A stretch of DNA of 37,048 nt, taken from contig VGYY01000005.1 in the NCBI GenBank assembly GCA_016872815.1, forward strand, positions 1 through 37,048. Direction: 5' to 3'. How positions within the stretch are numbered: the first letter of the stretch is position 1; each line of letters begins with the position of its first letter. Below the pieces are notes generated by a model. That model saw nothing but the letters and a program-made list of their open reading frames with translations, was not told where the DNA came from and did not search any database. Origin of the DNA: Planctomycetota bacterium. Lineage in GTDB: Bacteria; Planctomycetota; B15-G4; SIAN01. The translations under genes were made by a program, and so were the position numbers. Below are positions 2,557-16,639 of this stretch, piece by piece.

Positions 2557-2720
2557 GTCGGAGTTCTCCGGGGCTTGCGCCGATCGCGACGGCGACGCTG
2601 CGGCGCGGCCCTGCCAAGGGTCGCGGACGACCTTAGCGGCCGGGGAGCAGCGGCTAACATCCGCCCCCCTCGCGCCGCCGGCCCGGCCGCGACGCCATCG
2701 CCGCAGGCATCGCTCCCCGC
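2557..2720. promoter_or_regulatory. divergent intergenic region, FG-GAP gene / molybdenum hydroxylase operon
   Basis: These 164 bases separate two divergently transcribed units and must hold the promoters of both unless the transcripts start elsewhere. I see no convincing -35/-10 pair. A ribosome binding site GGAG lies just upstream of the leftward GTG. No Shine-Dalgarno sequence is visible immediately upstream of the rightward ATG at 2721, so that start may be inefficient or leaderless. Confidence 0.4.
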
Positions 2721-3275
2721 ATGACCGCCGTGACCCATCTCCTGCGCCTCGACGTGAACGGCAGCACCGTCGACGTGGCGGCACCGGCCCATTGGACGCT
2801 GCTCGAGGTGCTGCGCTACCGGCTGGCGCTGACCGGCAGCAAACAGGGGTGCGACAAGGGCGACTGCGGGGCGTGCACGGTGCTGTTCGATGGCAAGGCG
2901 CGCCTCGCCTGCATCACGCTTGCCGCCGACGCGGTCGGCCATCGCGTGACGACGATCGAGGGGCTGGTCACGCCGGCCGGCCTCGACGTGCTGCAGCGCA
3001 CCTTCGACGAAGCGGGGGCGCTCCAGTGCGGCTTCTGCCAGCCGGGGATGATCGTCGCGGCGCGCGCCTGCCTCGACCGCAAGCCGGACGCGACGCGCGC
3101 CGAGATCAAGGAGGCGCTCGCCTCGAACCTCTGCCGCTGCACCGGCTACACCAAGATCTTCGAGGCGGTCGAGCAGGCGGTCCGCGCCGGCAAGGCGGCC
3201 CACGTCGGCGGCCCCGCGAGCCTGCTCCCGAGCGGCGATGCCACACCCGCCCCCGCGAGCGGAGCCGCGCGATGA
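2721..3275 (+). CDS. molybdenum hydroxylase [2Fe-2S] small subunit (4-hydroxybenzoyl-CoA reductase gamma-like)
   Basis: A 184-residue electron-transfer subunit of a xanthine oxidase family enzyme, slightly longer than the usual ~160 because of an Ala/Pro-rich tail. The plant-type ferredoxin cluster site is CDKGDCGACTVLFDG (C44, C49, C52) with C64 downstream. The second, all-helical [2Fe-2S] site is CGFCQPGM (C103, C106) and NLCRCTGY (C138, C140). There is no signal peptide, so the complex should be cytoplasmic. It is the first gene of a small-large-medium operon. Its TGA overlaps the ATG of the large subunit (ATGA). It passes electrons between the molybdenum site and the FAD subunit. The assignment to the family is secure; the 4-HBCR-like subtype rests mainly on the FAD subunit at 5704-6738. 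Confidence 0.93.
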   Translation: MTAVTHLLRLDVNGSTVDVAAPAHWTLLEVLRYRLALTGSKQGCDKGDCGACTVLFDGKARLACITLAADAVGHRVTTIEGLVTPAGLDVLQRTFDEAGALQCGFCQPGMIVAARACLDRKPDATRAEIKEALASNLCRCTGYTKIFEAVEQAVRAGKAAHVGGPASLLPSGDATPAPASGAAR

Positions 3276-5704
3276 GCAGCTCCCACGGTTCCGGCAAGCC
3301 GCCCGCCGACCGCGCCGATCCGCTGCAGCACGCGCGGTCGCCGAATCGCACCTTCGGGCCGCAGCCGCCCGGCGAGCAGTTCGAGGTCATCGGCAAGCGG
3401 CTGCGGAAGGTCGACGGCGCCGGCAAGGCGACCGGCGAGGCGCTCTACACCGACGACCTCGCGCTGCCGGGGATGCTCCACGGCAAGACGCTGCGCAGCC
3501 CCCATCCGCACGCGCGGATCAAGCGGATCGACACCACCAAGGCCGAGGCGCTCGCGGGGGTCTTCGGCGTCGTGACCGGCGCCGAGATGCCGGCCCGCTT
3601 CGGCGTCATCCCGTGGACGCCCGACGAGACGGCGCTCTGCATCGACAAGGTGCGCTTCATCGGCGACCCGGTCGCTGCGGTCGCCGCCGTCGACGAGGAG
3701 ACGGCGACCCGCGCGCTCGACCTGATCGAGGTCGACTACGAGCAACTGCCGGCGCTGTTCGATCCGGCCGAGGCGCTCGCGCGCAAGGACGTGCTGGTCC
3801 ACGAGGGGAACAAGCACGGGAACATCACCAAGGAGGTCCTGCTCGAGTTCGGCGATCCCGACGGGGCGCTCGCCAAGTCCGACTTCGTGGTCGAGGACGA
3901 CTACTTCTTCCACGGCACGGCGCACGCGCCGATCGAGACCCACGTCGCACTGGCGCGTTACGGTTCGGACGGAGTGCTGACGCTCTGGTCGGCGACGCAG
4001 ATCCCGCACTACGTCCACCGCGAGCTGGCGAAGGTCCTCGACCTCCCGGCGCCGCAGATCCGCGTGATCCAGCCCTGCCTCGGCGGCGCGTTCGGCGGCA
4101 AGAGCGACCCTTTCAGCCTCGAGTTCTGCGCGGCGAAGCTGGCGATGAAGACGCGCCGGCCGGTCAAGTTCCTCTACACGCGCGAGGAGGAGTTCTACGC
4201 CCACCGCGGCCGCCACCCGATGGCGATGCGCTTCAAGACCGGCCTCTCCAAGGACGGCAGGATCACCGCCGTCGACAGCAAGATCCTGATCGACGGCGGC
4301 GCCTACTCGAGCTTCGGCCTGGTCACGACCTACTACTCGGGTCAGCTCCTCACCGGCCCGCACCAGATCCCGAACTACCGCTTCCACTCGACGCGCGTCT
4401 TCACCAACAAGCCCCCCTGCGGCCCCAAGCGCGGCCACGGCAGCGTGCAGCCGCGCTTCGCGCTCGAAGTGCAGCTCGACCGGCTGGCGGAGAAGGCGGG
4501 GCTCGACCCGATCGAGGTGCGCCGGCGCAACTTCCAGGGCGCCTACACCACGACGGTGAACGGCCAGCGTGTGACCAGCAACGGCTTCGATCAGTGCCTC
4601 GACGTCGTCGAGAAGGCGAGCGGCTGGAAGGAGCGGCGCGGGAAGCTCGGCCGCGGCCGCGGACTCGGCGTCGCCGGCTCGATGTACATCAGCGGCACCA
4701 ACTACTGCATCTACCCGAACGACATGCCGCAGGCGGGGATCCAGATCAAGGTCGACCGCAGCGGCCTCGTGACCGTCTTCAGCGGCGCCAGCGACATCGG
4801 CCAGGGCTCGAACTCGGTCGCCGCCTACATCGTGGCCGAGGAACTGGGCATGCGCGTCGAGGACGTGCGGGTGGTCGCCGCCGACAGCGACCTCTGCCCG
4901 GTCGACCTCGGCGCCTACAGCTCGCGCATCACCTTCATGGTCGGCAACGCGGCGGTCCACGCCGCGCGCAAGCTGCGCAAGCAGGTGCAGGCGGCCGTCG
5001 CGCAGGAGTGGGGGATCGAACCGGAACGGGTCGTGCTGGCCGGCGGCTTCGCCTTCGACAAGGACGATCGCGGCAAGGCGATCACCAGCGCCAAGGCGTT
5101 CCAGATCACCGAGGCGGTGCTCGAGACGCTCGGTTCGACCGGCTCCTACAACACGCCGAACCTCGGCGGCGATTACCGCGGCGGCACCATCGGGGCGAGC
5201 CCCGCCTACTCGTTCACGGCGTGCGTCGCCGAAGTCGAGGTCGACGAGGAGACCGGCATCGTCACGGTGCCGCACGTCTGGACCGCGCACGACTGCGGCC
5301 GCGCGCTGGCACCGGTGCTGGTGGAGGGGCAGATCGAGGGCAGCGCCTACATGGGCTTCGGCGAGGTCTTCCTCGAGCACCACGACGTGAACCGCTACGG
5401 GCTCCACGCGCGGCCGAACCTGCTCGACTACACGATCCCCACCTCGGTCGACTGCCCCGAGTTCCACGCCTCCTACGTCGAGTCGCTCGACCCGGAGGGG
5501 CCGTACGGCGCCAAGGAGGCAGGCGAGGGGCCGCTCCATCCGACGATCCCGGCGATCGCCAACGCGATCCACGATGCGTGCGGCATCTGGCTGACCAAGT
5601 TGCCGTTCACGCCGGCGAAGGTGGTGGCGGCGTTGCAGGCGCGCGATGCGGCGCGAGCGGCGGGTGGCGGTGCGAACGGCACGGCGAACGGGAGGGCGCA
5701 CTGA
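3272..5704 (+). CDS. molybdenum hydroxylase large (molybdopterin cytosine dinucleotide) subunit, 4-hydroxybenzoyl-CoA reductase alpha-like
   Basis: An 810-residue catalytic subunit. An N-terminal aldehyde oxidase a/b hammerhead domain (about 40-165, VIGKRLRKVDGAGKATGEALYTDD) is followed by the molybdopterin-binding domains. LGGAFGGKSDP (270-280) is the Mo-site loop and PPCGPKRGHGSVQPRFALE (381-399) the dithiolene region, in a form I recall from 4-hydroxybenzoyl-CoA reductase alpha subunits. ASDIGQG (507-512) is a further cofactor loop. GAKEAGEGP (746-754) contains the expected catalytic Glu, E749. Xanthine or CO dehydrogenases usually differ in the 381-399 segment. The likely reaction is reductive dehydroxylation of an aromatic CoA thioester or a related hydroxylation; the substrate cannot be fixed from sequence. 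Its start overlaps the small-subunit stop, and its TGA shares one base with the next ATG (TGATG). Confidence 0.92.
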   Translation: MSSSHGSGKPPADRADPLQHARSPNRTFGPQPPGEQFEVIGKRLRKVDGAGKATGEALYTDDLALPGMLHGKTLRSPHPHARIKRIDTTKAEALAGVFGVVTGAEMPARFGVIPWTPDETALCIDKVRFIGDPVAAVAAVDEETATRALDLIEVDYEQLPALFDPAEALARKDVLVHEGNKHGNITKEVLLEFGDPDGALAKSDFVVEDDYFFHGTAHAPIETHVALARYGSDGVLTLWSATQIPHYVHRELAKVLDLPAPQIRVIQPCLGGAFGGKSDPFSLEFCAAKLAMKTRRPVKFLYTREEEFYAHRGRHPMAMRFKTGLSKDGRITAVDSKILIDGGAYSSFGLVTTYYSGQLLTGPHQIPNYRFHSTRVFTNKPPCGPKRGHGSVQPRFALEVQLDRLAEKAGLDPIEVRRRNFQGAYTTTVNGQRVTSNGFDQCLDVVEKASGWKERRGKLGRGRGLGVAGSMYISGTNYCIYPNDMPQAGIQIKVDRSGLVTVFSGASDIGQGSNSVAAYIVAEELGMRVEDVRVVAADSDLCPVDLGAYSSRITFMVGNAAVHAARKLRKQVQAAVAQEWGIEPERVVLAGGFAFDKDDRGKAITSAKAFQITEAVLETLGSTGSYNTPNLGGDYRGGTIGASPAYSFTACVAEVEVDEETGIVTVPHVWTAHDCGRALAPVLVEGQIEGSAYMGFGEVFLEHHDVNRYGLHARPNLLDYTIPTSVDCPEFHASYVESLDPEGPYGAKEAGEGPLHPTIPAIANAIHDACGIWLTKLPFTPAKVVAALQARDAARAAGGGANGTANGRAH

Positions 5705-6738
5705 TGTTGCGGCTCGAACCGTTCGCGTTCGCGAGACCAGGCAGCGTCGATGAGGCGGTCGCGCTGCTGGCGAAGCACGGCCGCGCGGCCAGACTGATCG
5801 CCGGCGGCACCGACGTGATGCCGAACCTGAAGCACGGCCTCTACGAGCCGGAGGTGGTGATCGGCCTCTCCGCCGTGGCCGAACTGCGCGGGATCGCGCT
5901 CGAGGGCGGCGGTGCCGCCGCGAACGGCTCCGACGGCGAGCTGGTGATCGGCGCGATGACCACGCTCGCGGAGGTCGAGAGCCATCCGCTGGTGCTGGCG
6001 CGCGCGCCCGGCCTGGCGCAGGCGGCGCGATCCGTCGCCGGCCCGACGCAGCGGACGATGGGGACGCTCGGCGGCAACGTCTGCCTCGATACCCGCTGCG
6101 TCTGGATCAACCAGAGCCACTTCTGGCGCAAGAGCCTCGGCTACTGCCTGAAGAAGGACGGCACCGTCTGCCACGTGGTGCAGGGCGGCAAGAGCTGCGT
6201 GGCCGCCGCCAGCAACGACACGGCGACGCTGTTGTGCGCGCTCGGTGCGACGCTGGTGATCCGCAGCGCGCGCGGCGTGCGCGCGGTGGCGATCCGCGAC
6301 TTCTACAAGCCCGACGGCGCGATGAACCAGCGCCTCGAGCCCGATGAGCTCTTGACGCAGATCCGCGTGCCCGCGCCGCGCCGCTCCAGCGGCGCGAGCT
6401 GGTCGGGCTACGCCAAGCTGCGCGCGCGCAACTCGATCGACTTCCCCAAGCTCTCGATCGCGGTGGCATGGACCACCGACCGCGTCGGCGCGATCGACGA
6501 CGCCACGCTCGTGGTGAGCGCCATCGCCGCCGTGCCGCGCGTCATCGCCGGCATCGCCGACCTCGCCCGCGGCGGCCGCGCCGACGACCCGGCGCTGATC
6601 GCCCGCCTCGGCGAGCAGGCGCGCAAGGTGACGATCCCGCTCACCAACATCGACGGCGACACCGGCTGGCGCCGCGCGATGGTGCCGGTCTTCGTGAAGC
6701 GGGCATTCGCCGCGGCGCGCATGGCGACGACGGGCTGA
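5704..6738 (+). CDS. molybdenum hydroxylase FAD subunit with extra [4Fe-4S] loop (4-hydroxybenzoyl-CoA reductase beta-like)
   Basis: A 344-residue FAD-binding subunit of the CO dehydrogenase medium-chain family. The FAD motifs are IAGGTDVMP (32-40) and TLGGNVC (121-127). An insert after the second motif carries C132, C148, C156 and C165. Their spacing of 16, 8 and 9 residues is the one I recall for the additional [4Fe-4S] cluster of Thauera 4-hydroxybenzoyl-CoA reductase beta; a fifth Cys, C127, lies just before. The motif NQSHFWRKSLGYCLKKDG is typical of that subfamily and absent from ordinary xanthine dehydrogenase medium subunits. The extra cluster lets low-potential electrons enter, so this enzyme may run reductively. 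It ends the operon; no CoA ligase, thiolase or ring-reductase gene lies nearby. Confidence 0.92.
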   Translation: MLRLEPFAFARPGSVDEAVALLAKHGRAARLIAGGTDVMPNLKHGLYEPEVVIGLSAVAELRGIALEGGGAAANGSDGELVIGAMTTLAEVESHPLVLARAPGLAQAARSVAGPTQRTMGTLGGNVCLDTRCVWINQSHFWRKSLGYCLKKDGTVCHVVQGGKSCVAAASNDTATLLCALGATLVIRSARGVRAVAIRDFYKPDGAMNQRLEPDELLTQIRVPAPRRSSGASWSGYAKLRARNSIDFPKLSIAVAWTTDRVGAIDDATLVVSAIAAVPRVIAGIADLARGGRADDPALIARLGEQARKVTIPLTNIDGDTGWRRAMVPVFVKRAFAAARMATTG

Positions 6739-8133: not shown

Positions 8134-9081
8134 TCAGGCGCGGAGTCGGGTCGCGATCGCCAGCGCCAGTTCATCCGCCGCTTCGGGGCGGAAGCGGAAG
8201 AAGAGCTCCGGCTCGATCAGCTCGAGCTCCATCAGCTCGAGACGCCCCGCATGCTCGATCACGTCGACGCGGGCGTAGAGCGGCGGGGCCGGGGCGGCGG
8301 CGACGGCGCGCAGCGCGAAGTCGATCTCGGCCGCGTCTGCGGCGTGCGCGGTGACGGTGCCGCCGTGGTCGTCCTGGACGCGGAAGTCGCCGGGTTTCGG
8401 CCGCTTCGCCACGGCGTGGGAGAAGCGGCCGGCGATCACGATCAGCGACACCTCTCCTGCCGAGAGCACTTCGGGCCGGAACGGCTGGACCAGCAGGGCT
8501 TCGCGCTGCAGCAGGGCGGCGAGGCGCGGCGCGACGGCGGCGGCGTTCGCGCCGTCGATCCGGTGGGTCTCGCGGGCGGCGCCCGAGACCGCGGGCTTCA
8601 CGATCAGCTCGGGGCGCGGGTGGCGGCCGCCGTCCGCCGCCGCCAGCTTCCGCTCGAGGTCGAGCGCCCCACCCGCCGGCACGATCGCGGTCGGCACGAT
8701 CGCCACGCCGGCGCGTTCGAGGTCGAGCAGGTAGCGCTTGTCGAGGTTCCAGCGCACGATCGCGACGTCGTTCAGCAGGCGGGTGGCGGCGGCGGCGCGC
8801 TCGAGCCAGGCGGCGAACTCGCCGAACCGGTGGAAGTAGTCCCAGGTCGAGCGGAAGCAGGCGGCGCGCGTGCAGCGCCAGTCGAAGCGCGGGTTCGACC
8901 AGGCGACGCGCTCGGTGGCGAGGCCGGCTCTCCGGCAGGCGTCGAGCAGCAGGTGGTCCTCGCGCAGCAGCTGCCGGTGCCAGGCGGCGGAGCCGGCGCC
9001 GGTGGCGGGAGCGGCCGCCGACACGGCGGGGGCCTCATGGGCGTCGTCGGTGAGCAGCACGAGGTCGAGCGGACGGATCAT
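8134..9081 (-). CDS. ATP-grasp domain protein (glutathione-synthetase/RimK-like fold)
   Basis: A 315-residue protein of the uncharacterised ATP-grasp group that resembles glutathione synthetase, RimK and the cycloserine-pathway enzyme DcsG. The pre-grasp part contains FRSTWDYFHRFGEFAAWLER. The segment IVRWNLDKRYLLDLERAG, where a Lys contacts ATP, is followed by IVKPAVSGAARETHRI, the nucleotide-binding strand. The C-terminal ELELIEPELFFRF fits the acidic Mg2+-binding strand (E-x-E-L-I-E-P). Such enzymes form amide bonds from an acid and an amine using ATP; the substrates here are unknown. It is transcribed away from the YacP-like gene, with only 25 bases between the two start codons. No biosynthetic partner genes are adjacent. 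Confident for the fold, not for function. Confidence 0.8.
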   Translation of the reverse strand: MIRPLDLVLLTDDAHEAPAVSAAAPATGAGSAAWHRQLLREDHLLLDACRRAGLATERVAWSNPRFDWRCTRAACFRSTWDYFHRFGEFAAWLERAAAATRLLNDVAIVRWNLDKRYLLDLERAGVAIVPTAIVPAGGALDLERKLAAADGGRHPRPELIVKPAVSGAARETHRIDGANAAAVAPRLAALLQREALLVQPFRPEVLSAGEVSLIVIAGRFSHAVAKRPKPGDFRVQDDHGGTVTAHAADAAEIDFALRAVAAAPAPPLYARVDVIEHAGRLELMELELIEPELFFRFRPEAADELALAIATRLRA

Positions 9082-9106
9082 GGCGCCGAGGATAGGCTAC
9101 CGTCCG

Positions 9107-9637
9107 ATGCGTTACTGGGTCGACGGCTACAACGTGATCCACCGTGCGCCGATCGGCGCGGGCGCGAGCCTGCACGAGCGGCGCGCGGAGCTGCTGGCGC
9201 GGATCGCGGCAAGCGGGATGGCGGCCTTCGTCGCCTTCGACTCGAAGGAGCGCGTGGTCGGTGCCGAGCCGAGCGTGCCGCGCCGGATCGAAGTCGCGTT
9301 CGCGCGGGGCGGGCAGAACGCCGACCAGCTGCTGCTCGAGCGGCTGCGCAAGGAGCGCGACCTGCGCGGCGCGGTGCTGGTCAGCGACGATCGCGACCTG
9401 CGCGACCGCGCGCCGGGGCTCGGGGTGGAGACGCTGACGGTGGCGGCGTTCGCGAAGAAGCTCCTGCCGGCCGGCGCGGCCGGCGACGGCGCGAAGGGCG
9501 GCGGCCGGAAGGCGGCGAGCGGCGCGGCCGCGGGCGGGCGCGCGCTGTCGCGGCGCGAGGTCGATGACTGGATGGAGTGGTTCGGCTACGAGCGCGCGCC
9601 GGGAGCGGCGCCGGCGCCGAAGCGGAGCCGCCGATGA
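9107..9637 (+). CDS. YacP-like NYN domain protein (putative ribonuclease)
   Basis: A 176-residue protein beginning with the canonical RYWVDGYNVIHR of YacP/NYN domain proteins, which have a PIN-like nuclease fold. Expected acidic metal-binding residues are D6, D73 (in NADQLL) and D94/D95/D97 (in SDDRDL). The NYN core covers about 1-115; a Gly/Ala-rich spacer and a basic tail (LSRREVDDWMEWFGYERAP) follow. The Bacillus relative (Rae1/YacP) cleaves mRNA on the ribosome. Here the role in RNA turnover is inferred from the family. The ATG at 9107 is chosen because the motif normally begins at residue 1-3. Its TGA overlaps the ATG of the Rieske gene (ATGA). Confidence 0.85.
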   Translation: MRYWVDGYNVIHRAPIGAGASLHERRAELLARIAASGMAAFVAFDSKERVVGAEPSVPRRIEVAFARGGQNADQLLLERLRKERDLRGAVLVSDDRDLRDRAPGLGVETLTVAAFAKKLLPAGAAGDGAKGGGRKAASGAAAGGRALSRREVDDWMEWFGYERAPGAAPAPKRSRR

Positions 9638-10728
9638 GCGCCCCGAAGCCCGAACTCGCCATCGATCCCGACATCACGCGGGCGCGGATGCCGCCGGCGG
9701 CGCTCTACCGCGATCCGGCCTGGTGGAAGGCGCTGTGCGACGGGCCGCTGGCGCGCGGCTGGCACTGCCTCGGCGTGGCCGACGGGCTCGAGGCGGTCGG
9801 CGCCGCGCGGCCGCTCGTGCTGCTGCCGGGCGCGCTCGACGAACCGGTGGTGGTCGTGCGCGGCGGCGACGGCGAGCTGCGGCTGCTCGCCAACGCATGC
9901 ACCCATCGCGCCCACCTCGTGGTCGAGCAGGCGGGGTGCGGGCGCGCGCTGCGCTGCAGCTACCACGGGCGCGGCTTCGCGCTCGACGGGCGGTGCACCG
10001 GTGCGCCGGGGTTCGAGGGAGTGGCCGGTTTCCCGGGAGCCGAAGACGCGCTCGCGCGCTACGCGCTCGCCGAGTGGCGCGGGCTCCTGTTCGGGTCGCT
10101 CGCGCCCGAGGCGCCGTGGCGCGAGGTGATCGCGCCGGTGGAGGAGCGGGCGGCGCCGTTCCTGCCGGCGCGCTGGCGGCATGACGCGACGCTCGACCAG
10201 ACCTTCGAGTTCGACGGCCACTTCGCGCTGTACGTCGAGAACTACCTCGAGGGGCTGCACATCCCGTTCATCCATCCGGGGCTGAACGCGCGACTCGACT
10301 GGAAGCAGTACGGCTACGCGAGCTTCGCCCACGGCACGCTGCAGGTCGGCGTCGCCGCCGCGGGCGAGCCGACGTTGCCGCTGCCGGCCGGGCATCTCGA
10401 CACGGCGCGCGGGCCGGTGGGCGCGCTCTACTTCTGGCTCTTCCCGACCACCATGGTGAACCTCTATCCGTGGGGCCTCTCGCTCAACGTGATCGAACCG
10501 CTCGGGCCGGCGCGCACGCGGGTCCGCTTCCTCGCTTTCGTCGAGCGGCCGGAGTTGCACGATCGCGGCGCCGGTTCGGGGCTGGTGCAGGTGGAGCTCG
10601 AGGACGAGCGCGCGGTGCTGCAGGTGATGAAGGGGCTCGCCGCGCGCGCGTACCGCGGCGGCCGGTACGTCCCGCACGCCGAGCAGGGCGTCCACGCCTT
10701 CCACCGGATGCTCGCGCGCACGCTCTGA
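9634..10728 (+). CDS. Rieske non-heme iron oxygenase, alpha-type subunit
   Basis: A 364-residue oxygenase. The Rieske [2Fe-2S] site is C89-x-H91 and C108-x2-H111 (ACTHRAHL, RCSYHGRGF). The mononuclear iron site is seen in VENYLEGLHIPFIHPG, with H209 and H214 as ligands and E202/N203 as the bridging acidic region; D324 in ELEDERAV is the likely third ligand. The sequence resembles the choline monooxygenase, glycine-betaine demethylase and ring-hydroxylating alpha-subunit group. The substrate cannot be assigned. No ferredoxin reductase or beta subunit lies nearby, so electrons must come from a distant partner. The ATG at 9634 overlaps the stop of the YacP-like gene; an open frame extends further upstream but reads as shadow of that gene. 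Confidence 0.9.
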   Translation: MSAPKPELAIDPDITRARMPPAALYRDPAWWKALCDGPLARGWHCLGVADGLEAVGAARPLVLLPGALDEPVVVVRGGDGELRLLANACTHRAHLVVEQAGCGRALRCSYHGRGFALDGRCTGAPGFEGVAGFPGAEDALARYALAEWRGLLFGSLAPEAPWREVIAPVEERAAPFLPARWRHDATLDQTFEFDGHFALYVENYLEGLHIPFIHPGLNARLDWKQYGYASFAHGTLQVGVAAAGEPTLPLPAGHLDTARGPVGALYFWLFPTTMVNLYPWGLSLNVIEPLGPARTRVRFLAFVERPELHDRGAGSGLVQVELEDERAVLQVMKGLAARAYRGGRYVPHAEQGVHAFHRMLARTL

Positions 10729-10863: not shown

Positions 10864-11625
10864 TCAGTGGCCGGTGTGGCCGTCGATGACGAGGGCGAGG
10901 CGCAGCGGCTCGGGCGGGTCGGTGGGGGCGGCGCCGGCGGCGCGACCGAGCAGGGCGACTTCGAGCGCCTGCTCGGCGAGCTCCCCGCGCTGCGCGATCC
11001 GCGGCTGGCCGTCCGGCGGCGCCGGCTCGCTCGCGGCGGTCACATAGAGCACCAGCGCGTGGTCGCTCGGCGACACCGGCACCGACAGCGCCAGCAGCGC
11101 TTCCTTGGTCGTGACCGCTTCCGGCGACTGCTCCTCGGCGAGGCTGGTCAGCACGAGGAAGTCGCGGCTGTCCGAGGTGCCGAGGTGGTTGCCGTCGCTC
11201 GGCTGATGGACGTAGCGCAGGCCGTAGACGCCGGCGTCGATCGCCTGGTCGCGGTAGTCGTGCGCCCCGGTCACGGCACGGGCCACGCCGACGAACGCCC
11301 CCGGCTCGATCCGCCCCAGCGTGAAGTTGCCGTCCGCCGCCTGCGGCAGCAGCGGCAGCTCGGCGCGCCACCAGACCTCGAGCCGCACCTTGCCGTCGGG
11401 AGCCACCACGCGCATCCCGTCCGCCGCGAGCAGCGCCGCGAACGACTCCTTCGCGCGCGCCGCATCCGGCACGGTCGAGCCGCCCGCCGCGTCGCGGATC
11501 GGCTCGACCCGCCAGACTTTCGCCGCGGGAGCCGCCACCGGCGCCACCGCGGGCGCCGCCTCCTGGCCGCCGTCGCTGGAAGCGCCGCCGCACCACAGCA
11601 GCGCGATGCAGAAGCTCGCTCGCAT
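10864..11625 (-). CDS. exported hypothetical protein
   Basis: A 253-residue protein with a short hydrophobic start (MRASFCIALLWCGG) that suggests export, then an Ala/Pro-rich linker. C12 lies near a lipobox position, but the Trp before it is atypical. The body contains VYGLRYVHQPSDGNHLGTSD and RDFLVLTSLAEEQSPE. I recall this from uncharacterised exported proteins of Acidobacteriota and Planctomycetota but cannot name a family. No catalytic motif is visible. A GAGG about seven bases upstream supports the ATG at 11625. It follows the DUF1326 gene on the same strand after a 58-base gap, so the two are probably co-transcribed. Function unknown. Confidence 0.75.
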   Translation of the reverse strand: MRASFCIALLWCGGASSDGGQEAAPAVAPVAAPAAKVWRVEPIRDAAGGSTVPDAARAKESFAALLAADGMRVVAPDGKVRLEVWWRAELPLLPQAADGNFTLGRIEPGAFVGVARAVTGAHDYRDQAIDAGVYGLRYVHQPSDGNHLGTSDSRDFLVLTSLAEEQSPEAVTTKEALLALSVPVSPSDHALVLYVTAASEPAPPDGQPRIAQRGELAEQALEVALLGRAAGAAPTDPPEPLRLALVIDGHTGH

Positions 11626-11683: not shown

Positions 11684-12466
11684 TCAGCGCGCCCTGACCT
11701 CGTCGTGACCGACCGTCCGCGGCGGCACCGCCGTCTCGATCTCGAACTTGCCGAGGAAGGCGCTGCGCGAATCGCGGTCGATCCACGCCAGCTCGAGCAG
11801 CGTCCCCTTGACCTTGTGCTCGACGGTGAAGACGGCGTGCTTGTCGGCCAGCGCCGTGACCAGCGGCGGATAGAAGGTCTTCTCGTGGCCGCAGACTTCG
11901 TCGGTCTCCTTGAGGCAGCGCGTCTCGATCTGCGCGATCTCGCCGGCCTCGAACTTGGCGCACCCCTCCTTGTCGCAGCAGTCGACCTTGAGCGCGATCG
12001 AGGTCGGGATCTCCTCGATCACGTTGCCGCCGAGCTCGCCCGCCTGGGTCGCGACGAAGTCGCGCAGCGCGCGCAGTTGCTCGTCGTTCGCGCGCGCGTC
12101 GACCAGCAGGACGTTCCGCACCGGCAGCGCCGAGTGGTAGGGGTCGCCCAGCGTCGATTTGGCGACGATCACCAGCGCGACGCCGAGCCCCTTCAGCTCG
12201 ACGCCCTTCCAGGCGCCCTCGCTGAACTTCCAGACCAGGGTCGCCTGACGGCCCTGCTCGCTGGTCTCCGAGTTGGCGTAGCAGGCGCCGACCCAGACAT
12301 CGCAGGTGCGCGCCTCGAGGTAGTCGCCGCGGAGCATCGAGGCGAGCGGTGCGCTCGGCTGCGGCCGCGGCCGCTCGTCATCACCACGGCTCGTGTCGCC
12401 ACCGAACCCGGCGAACGCGCTACCGGCCAAGAGCAGCGCGCCCAGTACCGCACTCACGGTCCGCAT
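11684..12466 (-). CDS. exported DUF1326 domain protein
   Basis: A 260-residue protein with a Sec signal peptide (MRTVSAVLGALLLAGSAFAG, cleavage after AFA). The N-terminal half of the mature part has the DUF1326 pattern: GDYLEARTCDVWVGACYANSE, then ATLVWKFSEGAWKGVELKGL and STLGDPY. The second half is Cys-containing (KVDCCDKEGCAKF, ETRCLKETDEVCGHEKTFYPP) and may bind metal or form disulphides after export. DUF1326 proteins have no known activity. GGAG lies seven bases before the ATG at 12466. The gene probably starts a two-gene unit with the hypothetical at 10864-11625. The 156 bases upstream (12467-12622) carry no recognisable feature but should contain its promoter. Confidence 0.87.
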   Translation of the reverse strand: MRTVSAVLGALLLAGSAFAGFGGDTSRGDDERPRPQPSAPLASMLRGDYLEARTCDVWVGACYANSETSEQGRQATLVWKFSEGAWKGVELKGLGVALVIVAKSTLGDPYHSALPVRNVLLVDARANDEQLRALRDFVATQAGELGGNVIEEIPTSIALKVDCCDKEGCAKFEAGEIAQIETRCLKETDEVCGHEKTFYPPLVTALADKHAVFTVEHKVKGTLLELAWIDRDSRSAFLGKFEIETAVPPRTVGHDEVRAR

Positions 12467-12622: not shown

Positions 12623-12856
12623 TCACCCCTCGTAGCAGCCGCGCTCCGGGTTGCACTTCGCGGCGTCGCACGGCTCGCTCTCGGGACCGAGGGCCGTGAA
12701 CGTCTTCAGGCACCAGAAGCTGCGCCCTTCGAGGGCGCGCACCGGATCGGCCTGCCACCGTTCCATCTGCTCCTGCGAGGTGTAGTACATCTCCTTGCAG
12801 CGCAGATTGCGGCAGAGGCGGTGGCCGGCAGCCGGACGCAGGTTGGCGAAGCTCAT
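12623..12856 (-). CDS. small Cys-rich protein coupled to exported molybdenum hydroxylase
   Basis: A 77-residue protein with six cysteines: C15 and C20 (RLCRNLRCKEMYY), C49 (FWCLKTF), and C63, C68, C74 (PCDAAKCNPERGCYEG). The spacing suggests a zinc- or Fe-S-binding site, or disulphides if exported, but no signal peptide is seen. I do not recognise a named family. The ATG at 12856 lies one base after the stop of the FAD subunit at 12858, so it is almost certainly translated with the operon. It could be a dedicated maturation, electron-transfer or accessory factor; this is inferred from position only. It is the last gene of the unit. Confidence 0.75.
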   Translation of the reverse strand: MSFANLRPAAGHRLCRNLRCKEMYYTSQEQMERWQADPVRALEGRSFWCLKTFTALGPESEPCDAAKCNPERGCYEG

Positions 12857-12857
12857 C

Positions 12858-13847
12858 TCACGCTCCCTTCAGCGCCGCCGCGCACGCGCGCCGCAGCGCG
12901 ACCTGCGCCAGCTCGACCTTGTAGGCGTTGCCCTTGAGCGGAGTCGCCGACTTCGCGACCGCCGCCGCCAGACCGGCGATGGCGGCGGCGTCGATCGCCT
13001 TGCCGACCAGCGCCGCCGCTTCCGGCACGCTCCAAGGCGTCGGCGCCACGTGGCCGAGCGCGACGCGCGCCGCCACGCACTTGCCGCCGCCGTCCAGCTC
13101 GAACGCAACCGCCGCCGCCGCCAGCGGCCAGTCGAGTCCCTGGCGCGGGCGCACCTCGTAGGTCGCGCTCCGCGGCCGCGGTCGCGGCAACGTGACCGCC
13201 ACCAGCAGTTCGTCGGCGGCGAGCGCGGTCTCGCGCTCGCCCGCCGTCGCCGGCGTTCGGTAGAGCTCCTCGACCTGGACGGTCCGGTTGCCCTTCGGCG
13301 ACGCGATCTCGGCGGTGGCGCCGCAGGCGATCAGCGCCGGCGCCAGGCTCGATGCGTGCACGAACTTCGCGGGTCCCGCGTTGCCGAAGACCGCGTGGTA
13401 GCGGTGGTCGCCCTTCTCGACCATCGAGCTGCCGTCGGCCTCCTGCGCCAGGAGCCCGTGACCGCGCCGGAAGTACCAGCAGCGCGGCCGCTGCAGCAGT
13501 TCGCCGCCGACGGTGCCCATGGCGCGCAGCTGCAGGCTGCGGATCCCCGCCGTGGCGTGCCAGAGCGCCGGCCACTTGGCGGCCCACTGGTTCAGCGCGC
13601 CCGACTGCAGCAACGCGTCGAGCGTGACCGTCGCGCCGATCCGGAGCCCGTCCTTGCCGACCGTGATCGCCTGCAGCGGCGCGATCCCCATCAGCGAGAC
13701 CAGCCGCTTCGGCTCGACCACGAAGTCCTTCATCAGCGAGAGCAGGTCGGTGCCGCCGGCGAGCGGCGCCACCTCGCCGTCCTTCGCCGAGAGCAGCCCG
13801 ATCGCCTCCTCGACCGTCGCCGGCCGCGCGTACTCGAATGCGTTCAT
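12858..13847 (-). CDS. molybdenum hydroxylase FAD subunit (subunit M), exported-enzyme type
   Basis: A 329-residue FAD-binding subunit of the xanthine dehydrogenase/CO dehydrogenase family. APLAGGTDLLSLMK (27-40) and TVGGELLQRPRCWYFRRG (112-129) are the two FAD-contacting regions; AVFGNAGPAKFVHASSLAPA follows. In PaoB-like subunits, and in the paralogue at 5704-6738, the loop after the second motif binds a [4Fe-4S] cluster. Here only C123 remains in it, so the cluster is probably absent. GAGGAG precedes the ATG at 13847 by about seven bases. It lies 16 bases after the large subunit and is followed after one base by the Cys-rich protein. It feeds or drains electrons between the [2Fe-2S] subunit and an unknown acceptor. 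Confidence 0.9.
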   Translation of the reverse strand: MNAFEYARPATVEEAIGLLSAKDGEVAPLAGGTDLLSLMKDFVVEPKRLVSLMGIAPLQAITVGKDGLRIGATVTLDALLQSGALNQWAAKWPALWHATAGIRSLQLRAMGTVGGELLQRPRCWYFRRGHGLLAQEADGSSMVEKGDHRYHAVFGNAGPAKFVHASSLAPALIACGATAEIASPKGNRTVQVEELYRTPATAGERETALAADELLVAVTLPRPRPRSATYEVRPRQGLDWPLAAAAVAFELDGGGKCVAARVALGHVAPTPWSVPEAAALVGKAIDAAAIAGLAAAVAKSATPLKGNAYKVELAQVALRRACAAALKGA

Positions 13848-13863: not shown

Positions 13864-15993
13864 TCACGTCTTCAGCGCGGCGAGGACGCGGTCGGGCGTC
13901 ATCGGGCAGCGCTTCACGCGGGCGCCGATCGCGTTGGCGACGGCGTTGGCGATCGCCGCCATCGGGCTGATCGCCGGCGGCTCGCCGATGCCGATCACGC
14001 CGCGCGCGACGTGCTCGGGCGTCTGCATCATGTGGACGTCGAGCCGCCCGACGTCGGCGATGCCGGCGAGCTTGTAGAACTCGAGGTCCGGGTTCAGCAC
14101 GACGCCGGTGACCGGATCCTGGATGCGCTCCTCGTAGAGCGCCGCGCAGACCCCCATGATCATCGCGCCGCGCACCTGGCTCTCGGTGGTGAGCAGGTCG
14201 ATGATGCGGCCGCAGTCCTGCACCGCGACCATCTGCCGCACGGTGACGATGCCGGTCTCGCAATCGACCTCGACGTCGGCCATCTGCACGCCGCCGACCT
14301 GCGAACTCGACATGCCGTTGCCGCGCTGCGTCTGCCCCATGGTCACGACCGGCTGCGCGCCGAGCCGCCGGCAGGCGTCGGCGAACGGCACGCCTCCCGC
14401 CGCCGACTCGCGGCCGCGGATCAGCCCGTCCTTCGCGATCAGCTGTTCCGGCGCCGCGTTCATCTCCGGCGCGATCGCCGCGCACAACTTGTCCAGCGCC
14501 TGCACGCAGGCATGGCGCGTCGCCGTGCTGATGGCGCCGACGGTGGTGGAGCCGCCCGAGCCGTCCGATTGCGGGTAGCGGTTCTCGCCGATCAGCACGG
14601 TCACCTTGGCGAGCGGCAGCCCGAAGGTCTCGGCCGCGACGATGCCGATGGTGGTGCGCGCGCCGACGCCGAGGTCCTGCGTGCCGCACCGGAGCTCGAC
14701 CGCGCCGTCGGGGTGGAGCGTGCACTGCACGTTGCTGTTGTGCGGCCCGCCGCCCCAGGTGTGCAGGGCGAGGCCGACGCCGCGGCGCACCACGTCGCCC
14801 TGGTCGCCGCGCGGGATCCACTTCTTCTTCCAGCCGATCATCTCGGCGGCGATCTCGAGTTCCTCGCGGTAGACGTCGGCGCGCGAAGTGAGCCCGAGGT
14901 TCTTCCGGAAGAAGTCGAGCTCGTCCATGCCGAGCTCGGCCGCGGCATCCGACAGCGCCGCCATGGTCAGCAGGCACATCTGCGGGTGGTTCGGCGCGCG
15001 CCACGCCCGCTGCGCGCCGGTGTTGGTGAAGATCGGCGTCGACTTCACCTTCTTGTTCGGGATGTTGCCGAAGACGTAGGGGAGGCCCGGCGCGCCCATG
15101 CCGCCGTTGACGCCGCCGGTGCCCCAGGCGTCCGACTCCCAGGCGACGATCTCGCCGTCGTCCTTGACGCCGACGCGCATGCGACCGAACGCCGACAGGC
15201 GCGAACCGGCCAGCGCGATCTCCATGTCGCGCTCCAGCATCACCTTGACCGGCCGGCCGGTCTGCCGGGCGAGCCGCGCCGCCAGCGCGCCCCAGAGGTC
15301 GGCGCCGAACTTGGAGCCGAAGCCGCCGCCCATGTGCTGGCAACTGACGCGCACCTGCGCCGCCGGCACACCGGCCGCCTGCGCGAACTCGCCGCCCACG
15401 CCCGACACCGCCTGCGACGAGCACCAGGCGCGCACGACCGGCTGTCCGTCCTCCTCGCCGAACTCGACCACCGAGCCGTGCGACTCGAGGCAGCAGTGGG
15501 TGAGCACCGAACAGCCGACCTCGGTCTCGCTCACCACCGCCGCGCCGCCGATCGCCTCGGCGAAGTCGTCGGTGAGCTGCTCGCGGCCCGGCTTCGCCTG
15601 GTTGCCGGCCATGGCGACGTCGTCATCGACGACGTTGTGGGCGAGACGGTCGAAGGTCACCTTGACCCGGCGCACTGCCTCGCGCGCGATCTCCTCGCTC
15701 TCCGCGGCGATGCAGGCGACCTCCTGGAACGAGGTCTTGAGCTCGCTGCCGACCCCGGCGATCACCTCGACGGCGACCACGCCGGGCAGCTGCTGCGCCG
15801 GCGTCACGTCCAGGGAGGCGACCCGCGCCCGCCCGTACGGGCAGGTGACGAACTTCGCCCAGAGCATGCGCGGACGGTTGATGTCGTAGGTGTACTTCGC
15901 CCGTCCGGCGCACTTGTCGGGGCCGTCGATGCGCGGCACGCGCGTGCCGAGCAGCGAGCAGTCCTTCGGATCGGGCCACGCGAGGTCGGCCAT
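13864..15993 (-). CDS. molybdenum hydroxylase large (molybdopterin) subunit, aldehyde-oxidoreductase-like
   Basis: A 709-residue catalytic subunit, close in size to PaoC/YagR-type enzymes. The aldehyde oxidase a/b hammerhead domain begins LLGTRVPRIDGPDKCAGRAK. The Mo-site loop is MGGGFGSKFG, the substrate-side loop is QRAWRAPNHPQ, and GIGEPPAISP contains the expected catalytic Glu, E671. This differs clearly from the 4-HBCR-like subunit at 3272-5704 (GAKEAGEG and CGPKRGHG), so the two enzymes have separate substrates. There is no signal peptide; it would be exported by hitch-hiking on the Tat signal of the small subunit, as known for PaoABC. The start is one base after the small-subunit stop. 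The probable reaction is oxidation of an aldehyde or N-heterocycle; substrate unknown. Confidence 0.92.
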   Translation of the reverse strand: MADLAWPDPKDCSLLGTRVPRIDGPDKCAGRAKYTYDINRPRMLWAKFVTCPYGRARVASLDVTPAQQLPGVVAVEVIAGVGSELKTSFQEVACIAAESEEIAREAVRRVKVTFDRLAHNVVDDDVAMAGNQAKPGREQLTDDFAEAIGGAAVVSETEVGCSVLTHCCLESHGSVVEFGEEDGQPVVRAWCSSQAVSGVGGEFAQAAGVPAAQVRVSCQHMGGGFGSKFGADLWGALAARLARQTGRPVKVMLERDMEIALAGSRLSAFGRMRVGVKDDGEIVAWESDAWGTGGVNGGMGAPGLPYVFGNIPNKKVKSTPIFTNTGAQRAWRAPNHPQMCLLTMAALSDAAAELGMDELDFFRKNLGLTSRADVYREELEIAAEMIGWKKKWIPRGDQGDVVRRGVGLALHTWGGGPHNSNVQCTLHPDGAVELRCGTQDLGVGARTTIGIVAAETFGLPLAKVTVLIGENRYPQSDGSGGSTTVGAISTATRHACVQALDKLCAAIAPEMNAAPEQLIAKDGLIRGRESAAGGVPFADACRRLGAQPVVTMGQTQRGNGMSSSQVGGVQMADVEVDCETGIVTVRQMVAVQDCGRIIDLLTTESQVRGAMIMGVCAALYEERIQDPVTGVVLNPDLEFYKLAGIADVGRLDVHMMQTPEHVARGVIGIGEPPAISPMAAIANAVANAIGARVKRCPMTPDRVLAALKT

Positions 15994-15994
15994 C

Positions 15995-16639
15995 TCAGTT
16001 GCCTCCCTTGCCGGCCAGCGCGTCGACGACCGCCTGCGCGACGCCGTGATAGGTGCCGCAGCGGCAGAGGTTGCCGCCCAGCCCGTCGAGCGCCTGCTCG
16101 CGCGTGGCGCCGGGGTTGGCGCGCTTGAACGACTCGCACGCCATGACGAAGCCCGGCGTGCAGAAGCCGCATTGCTGGGCGTCGTTGGCGACGAAACACT
16201 TCTGGATCGGCGCGGCGCCGCCGTGGGTCTCGGCGAGCCCCTCGACCGTCTCGATGGCACGGCCGTTCGCCTCGACCGCCAGCACGGTGCAGGCGTAGAC
16301 CGCCTTGCCGTCCAGCAGGACCGTGCACGCCCCGCAGGTGGCGCGATCGCACACCTTCTTGGCGCCGGTCAGGTCGAGGTGGTTGCGCAGCGCATCGAGC
16401 AGCGTCACCCGCGGCTCGAGGCGCAGCTGGCGCACCTTGCCGTTGACGTTCAGGGCCACCGCGACTGGAGCGGGACCGAACACCGTCCCGGCCGCCGCGG
16501 CCTGTGGCCCGGCCTTCGCACCGAGTGCGGCGGCCGCGGGGGCGACTGCGCCGGCAGCCAGCGCTCCGGCGCCCACTCCCTTGAGGAAGCCACGCCGCGA
16601 GACGCCGGAAGCGTCCTGCGGCTGATCGGACCGGCTCAT
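15995..16639 (-). CDS. Tat-exported [2Fe-2S] small subunit of molybdenum hydroxylase
   Basis: A 214-residue ferredoxin-like subunit with a twin-arginine signal (SRRGFLKGVGAGALAAGAV, 14-32), so the folded complex should reach the periplasm. The first cluster site is CDRATCGACTVLLDG (C97, C102, C105) with C117. The second is CGFCTPGF (C157, C160) and NLCRCGTYHG (C192, C194). A strong GAGGGAGGAG lies just upstream of the ATG at 16639, so this is the first gene of the operon small, large, FAD, Cys-rich protein. The gene order differs from paoABC, where FAD precedes the large subunit. No XdhC/PaoD-type chaperone is adjacent. The open frame continuing upstream of 16639 lies opposite the phosphodiesterase gene and is a shadow. 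Confidence 0.93.
   Translation of the reverse strand: MSRSDQPQDASGVSRRGFLKGVGAGALAAGAVAPAAAALGAKAGPQAAAAGTVFGPAPVAVALNVNGKVRQLRLEPRVTLLDALRNHLDLTGAKKVCDRATCGACTVLLDGKAVYACTVLAVEANGRAIETVEGLAETHGGAAPIQKCFVANDAQQCGFCTPGFVMACESFKRANPGATREQALDGLGGNLCRCGTYHGVAQAVVDALAGKGGN

Follow-up and report, generated by a model that had tools for sequence, protein, structure and literature searches.

The exported molybdenum hydroxylase predicted from a 37,048-nucleotide stretch of a Planctomycetota genome (assembly GCA_016872815.1, contig VGYY01000005.1, positions 1 to 37,048; hereafter the window, meaning the whole stretch analysed) is accompanied by a small protein with four invariant cysteines, whose gene is the last of the enzyme operon. 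The enzyme is of a known kind; what is new is this near-obligate small partner. Judging from sequence comparisons, it is very likely either a fourth piece of the exported enzyme or a dedicated helper in its assembly, and we assign a probability of about 0.5 to its being a fourth subunit, probably of the iron-sulfur (Fe-S) kind, that is exported together with the enzyme. Members of the xanthine oxidase family are described with one to three subunits and a fixed redox chain; a fourth component that is nearly always present would mean that exported molybdenum enzymes have either an additional redox centre or a new step in their assembly. The operon comprises the following genes, where FAD stands for flavin adenine dinucleotide and Tat for twin-arginine translocation:

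12623..12856, minus strand: small four-cysteine protein, last gene of the enzyme operon (77 amino acids, aa)
12858..13847, minus strand: FAD subunit of the CoxM/PaoB/HcrB type (329 aa; Pfam FAD_binding_5, 2.3e-34, and CO_deh_flav_C, 1.7e-13)
13864..15993, minus strand: molybdenum-cofactor (Mo) subunit, ATG start (MoCoBD_1, MoCoBD_2)
15995..16639, minus strand: 2x[2Fe-2S] (FeS) subunit with a Tat signal peptide, VSRRGFLKGVGAGALAAGAVAPAAAAL (Fer2_2, Fer2)

The small protein, MSFANLRPAAGHRLCRNLRCKEMYYTSQEQMERWQADPVRALEGRSFWCLKTFTALGPESEPCDAAKCNPERGCYEG, is the translation of the minus strand from 12856 to 12623 and is read from that strand only, the plus-strand translation being different. As the original prediction had it, the gene starts one base past the end of the FAD gene (TGA, one base, ATG), and a gap of one base also separates the FeS-subunit stop from the Mo-subunit start. 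We regard this open reading frame (ORF) as a real gene and not a chance one, because it has homologues across the phylum (71% identity within the genus, falling to about 25% over the phylum as a whole; lengths mostly of 65-88 residues) and because the ratio of nonsynonymous to synonymous substitution rates (Ka/Ks) stayed well under 1 in all pairs compared, with values of 0.25 to 0.41 among three members of the window's genus and, likewise, values well under 1 in five further pairs.

The linkage of this gene to the enzyme was exclusive. A first search with the single sequence among 58 relatives gave 14 matches, every one adjoining a FAD subunit of the xanthine dehydrogenase (XDH) type, and a profile built from these matches was then run on 392 Planctomycetota genomes, mostly fragmented assemblies, in which it found 102 places in 101 genomes. 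The gene lay downstream of a FAD gene and on the same strand in 101 of these places, directly in 100 and 0.84 kb off in one (L167); the linkage held in 81/81 places inspected first, and the remaining ones were judged by coordinates or by inspection. The last place (L175, E 0.0026) was a weak and fragmentary match, had no enzyme in its surroundings and was not counted as a member. The order FeS-Mo-FAD-small, all on the minus strand in the window, was kept on a single strand in the 80/80 neighbourhoods fetched, with gaps only where the contig or the retrieved DNA ended, and the distance from the FAD stop to the start of the small gene had a median of 2 nucleotides, a spacing that agrees with translational coupling and comparable dosage. 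The FeS subunit of the window begins with the Tat signal SRRGFLKGVGAGALAAGAVAPAA, similar signals occur in its relatives, and a twin-arginine motif was recognized by eye in 73 of the 75 FeS reading frames from partner sets; the two without it are truncated. Pairing of the small protein with non-Tat enzymes was considered and rejected, the FeS signals being RRxLL or RRDVLRGAGAAA variants. A contig scan for the small protein retrieved three close relatives, those named being Planctomycetota, and a plasmid collection queried with three different members yielded no small protein, yet held 585 plasmid records with an XDH-type Mo subunit.

The converse question, which FAD subunits have the small gene, was addressed with a FAD-subunit profile run on the same 392 genomes. 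At 313 bits or above there were 110 matches, set apart from a lower-scoring group (the clade counts depend on this threshold); two of the 110, at contig ends (L182, L183), were left out. The small gene stood beside 99 of the 108 testable FAD subunits of the clade, a clade present in roughly one in four of the Planctomycetota genomes sampled. Homologues are thus not found mostly away from molybdenum hydroxylases, and the coupling to this type of exported enzyme proposed in the original prediction is near-perfect both ways (101/102 places; 99/108 FAD subunits). The nine sets without the gene came from G016, G014, G032, G304 (whose enzyme genes are frameshifted) and five genomes of one genus. Because the FeS subunits of these nine sets keep a Tat signal wherever readable, the small protein appears to be typical of the clade and not indispensable. 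In the genus without the small gene (L170, L171, L174, L180, L181), another conserved ORF of about 118 aa (MDVRFSDPARVSLLAHIFASILRRG...), with no Pfam match, occupies the corresponding position after the FAD gene. Among near relatives, no small gene was present beside any of 16 inspected FAD subunits resembling that of 4-hydroxybenzoyl-CoA reductase (HBCR), including the window's own at 5719-6717, nor in two PaoB-like sets of the same phylum (L172, L173), which do carry Tat signals.

Mean column identity across 81 aligned small proteins was only about 22%. Against this background, C15, K21, C49, C68, R72 and C74 were invariant in 81/81 members, and L18, W48, T52, G57, P58 and an acidic residue at position 59 were nearly so; in one member found later (L176), K21 is replaced by Q. 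The window protein does have cysteines at the six positions pointed out before (15, 20, 49, 63, 68 and 74), but their reading as pairs did not survive the alignment: C20 and C63 vary, so that what is conserved is a site of four cysteines (spaced C-x33-C-x18-C-x5-C in the protein of the window) instead of three pairs. Four invariant cysteines in a protein of this size point to a metal site or cluster.

The family had not been recognized from the sequence alone, and searches against Pfam, NCBIfam and PDB sequences with single members, a 69-member set and the profile likewise gave no family match. Weak matches to Fab chains, DUF7549, CWC and others were judged to be due to chance; Cys_rich_CWC (PF14375), for instance, matched 1 of 69 members (E 0.0033). 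An identity with the XdhC/PaoD chaperones was rejected, no XdhC Pfam domain being found in any of the 69 members and a true XdhC being encoded elsewhere in the genome, as was an identity with high-potential iron-sulfur proteins (HiPIP), for which there was neither a Pfam nor a fold match. AlphaFold2 modelled the window protein with a predicted local distance difference test (pLDDT) score of 73 and the short member L098 with a pLDDT of 86 and a predicted template modelling (pTM) score of 0.68. The latter, a confident model, had almost no helix or strand, which would be in keeping with a fold held together by a bound metal. Foldseek comparison of the two models with the PDB, and of one with BFVD, returned nothing significant, and no description of a fourth subunit in such enzymes was found in the open-licence literature. 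By these comparisons, the small protein founds a conserved family not covered by the profile libraries, PDB sequences or PDB folds searched.

The enzyme itself carries the Pfam domains of the xanthine oxidase family (Fer2/Fer2_2, FAD_binding_5/CO_deh_flav_C, Ald_Xan_dh_C/MoCoBD_1/MoCoBD_2). The nearest solved relative of its Mo subunit is PaoC (5g5h_C, 6e-61) of the E. coli periplasmic aldehyde oxidoreductase PaoABC(D) (PDB 5g5g, 5g5h). However, a Pao-type set has the order FeS-FAD-Mo and no small four-cysteine gene, whereas the window set reads FeS-Mo-FAD-small, and the window scored 289.6 bits against the PaoC equivalog NF041671 (cut-off 1180), indicating that this is not PaoABC proper. The FAD subunit is nearest to 5y6q_B among solved structures, from an aldehyde oxidase for which no four-cysteine fourth protein was found among PDB sequences; its best NCBIfam match, the 4-hydroxybenzoyl-CoA reductase FAD profile TIGR03195, was far under the cut-off. 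In 4-hydroxybenzoyl-CoA reductase (HcrABC, PDB 1rm6), the FAD subunit has an extra cysteine loop for a [4Fe-4S] cluster and, unlike in the window's exported set, there is no small fourth gene. HiPIPs resemble the small protein only by working analogy, as small four-cysteine proteins with little regular secondary structure, and their cysteine spacing differs.

The cysteine loop of the FAD subunit had given rise to the proposal that the small protein could stand in for the electron path of a cluster which that subunit lost. The loss itself was borne out: C123 alone is left of the four loop cysteines in the FAD subunit of the exported set, which lacks an HcrB/PaoB-type loop. However, of 90 FAD partners of the small protein, 60 have the full set of four loop cysteines, 19 have three and 11 have a single one. 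When a tree was inferred with the loop columns left out (LG+G4, short search, 29 weak forks), the complete loss was a single change placed among rows with the small protein and an intact loop, and presence of the small gene needed two changes, as for an ancestral gene lost later. Since this single loss is nested within lineages that have both the small protein and an intact loop, the small protein is older than the loss. All 11 fully lost loops do occur with the small protein, which could therefore have allowed the window's lineage to tolerate the loss, but this correlation rests on one event and, with about 92% of the clade having the small protein, is uninformative; moreover, the additional cysteines C20 and C63 do not track loop loss. 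Replacement is thereby refuted as a general reason for the small protein, and we consider it highly improbable in any form. On this phylogeny the protein did not arise to replace the lost cluster, and it is independent of the FAD-loop cluster. The partners with three loop cysteines include L077, L081, L085, L092, L097, L100, L110 and relatives, in which the fourth is replaced in GGGPSY; the FAD subunits of this large group may accordingly hold a [3Fe-4S] cluster or one altered in some other way.

For the reading as a fourth subunit, we infer the following course. The small protein would belong, as a dedicated fourth component, to a molybdenum hydroxylase of the xanthine dehydrogenase type (aldehyde-oxidoreductase-like) that is exported by the Tat route. 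C15, C49, C68 and C74 would bind a metal centre, most probably in the form of an Fe-S cluster, and K21 and R72 would lie close to it; docking on the enzyme would take place in the cytoplasm. Because it has no signal of its own, it is proposed to leave the cell with the enzyme by means of the Tat signal of the FeS subunit; in the periplasm it would extend or gate the exit of electrons from the FAD to a periplasmic acceptor. A more specific form, in which a new Fe-S family with a fold absent from the PDB supplies Planctomycetota with an exported fourth redox subunit whose cluster lies beyond the FAD on the way to the periplasmic acceptor (and also beyond the HBCR-type cluster where there is one), is put forward only tentatively. 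To our knowledge, the electron acceptor of periplasmic members of the xanthine oxidase family is largely open, and the small protein offers a concrete candidate for the connection to it, which would give a testable role to a family outside the libraries and structures searched.

Several observations weigh against this fourth-subunit reading. Among the 81 aligned members there was no natural fusion of the small protein to the FAD or any other subunit; PaoABC is functional with three subunits (PMC3958847); the irregular cysteine spacing matches neither ferredoxin, HiPIP nor zinc ribbon; and nine clade members of the same architecture do without the gene, their FeS subunits having a Tat signal wherever readable. 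The last position in the operon would, by analogy, fit a maturation factor equally well, as with PaoD in paoABCD and XdhC in xdhABC (PMC3958847; PMC10609526). The main competing explanation, possible but not the one we favour, follows the role in maturation that the original prediction also raised: a cytoplasmic factor dedicated to assembling or proofreading the exported enzyme, handling metal or sulfur or acting as a Tat-export checkpoint, which would bind the FAD subunit or the FeS subunit ahead of export and be absent from the mature enzyme. Such a factor could well lack a signal peptide, as the small protein does, and be restricted to Tat-exported enzymes, and some lineages have an otherwise intact enzyme without it. 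The fourth pao gene of E. coli, paoD, encodes an XdhC-like chaperone (PMC3958847), and XdhC/YagQ (PaoD) proteins act in sulfuration and insertion of the molybdenum cofactor (PMC10609526, PMC3958847). Yet, of 32 genomes tested, some with the small gene and some lacking it, 31 encoded an XdhC-type chaperone elsewhere, so that cofactor insertion has no obvious need for the small protein. Exported enzymes of the PaoABC type, L172 and L173 of the same phylum included, also do without it, and four invariant cysteines plus a lysine and an arginine exceed what a simple chaperone needs. A structural subunit stabilised by zinc or disulfides and devoid of a redox role, for instance sealing the FAD/FeS interface for export, would likewise account for the invariant cysteines, the scant secondary structure and the one-to-one operon linkage, but the invariant cysteines include no CxxC and show no zinc-ribbon or knuckle spacing, no Pfam zinc family was matched and no positive feature sets such a site apart from an Fe-S site, so that we consider this explanation unlikely.

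Downstream of the operon, two further genes were noted:

11684..12466, minus strand: DUF1326 protein with a Sec-type signal peptide (PF07040, 2.6e-10)
10864..11625, minus strand: probably exported protein of 253 aa, no Pfam match; downstream neighbour in a minority of loci

The DUF1326 gene follows the operon in the window and in about 22 of 81 loci, often together with the 253-aa protein; it is not obligatory, and its product possibly works together with the exported enzyme. The window also holds a second XDH set, of the HBCR type (about 2685-6738, plus strand), which lies some 6 kb away from the exported one and points the opposite way. Its Mo subunit scored 874.7 bits against TIGR03194 (cut-off 994.6), its FAD subunit (5719-6717) keeps a cysteine-rich loop, and its FeS subunit has no Tat signal. 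Finally, a Rieske-type ring-hydroxylating oxygenase alpha subunit (9577-10728, plus strand) adjoins a YacP-like NYN domain protein (8870-9637, plus strand).
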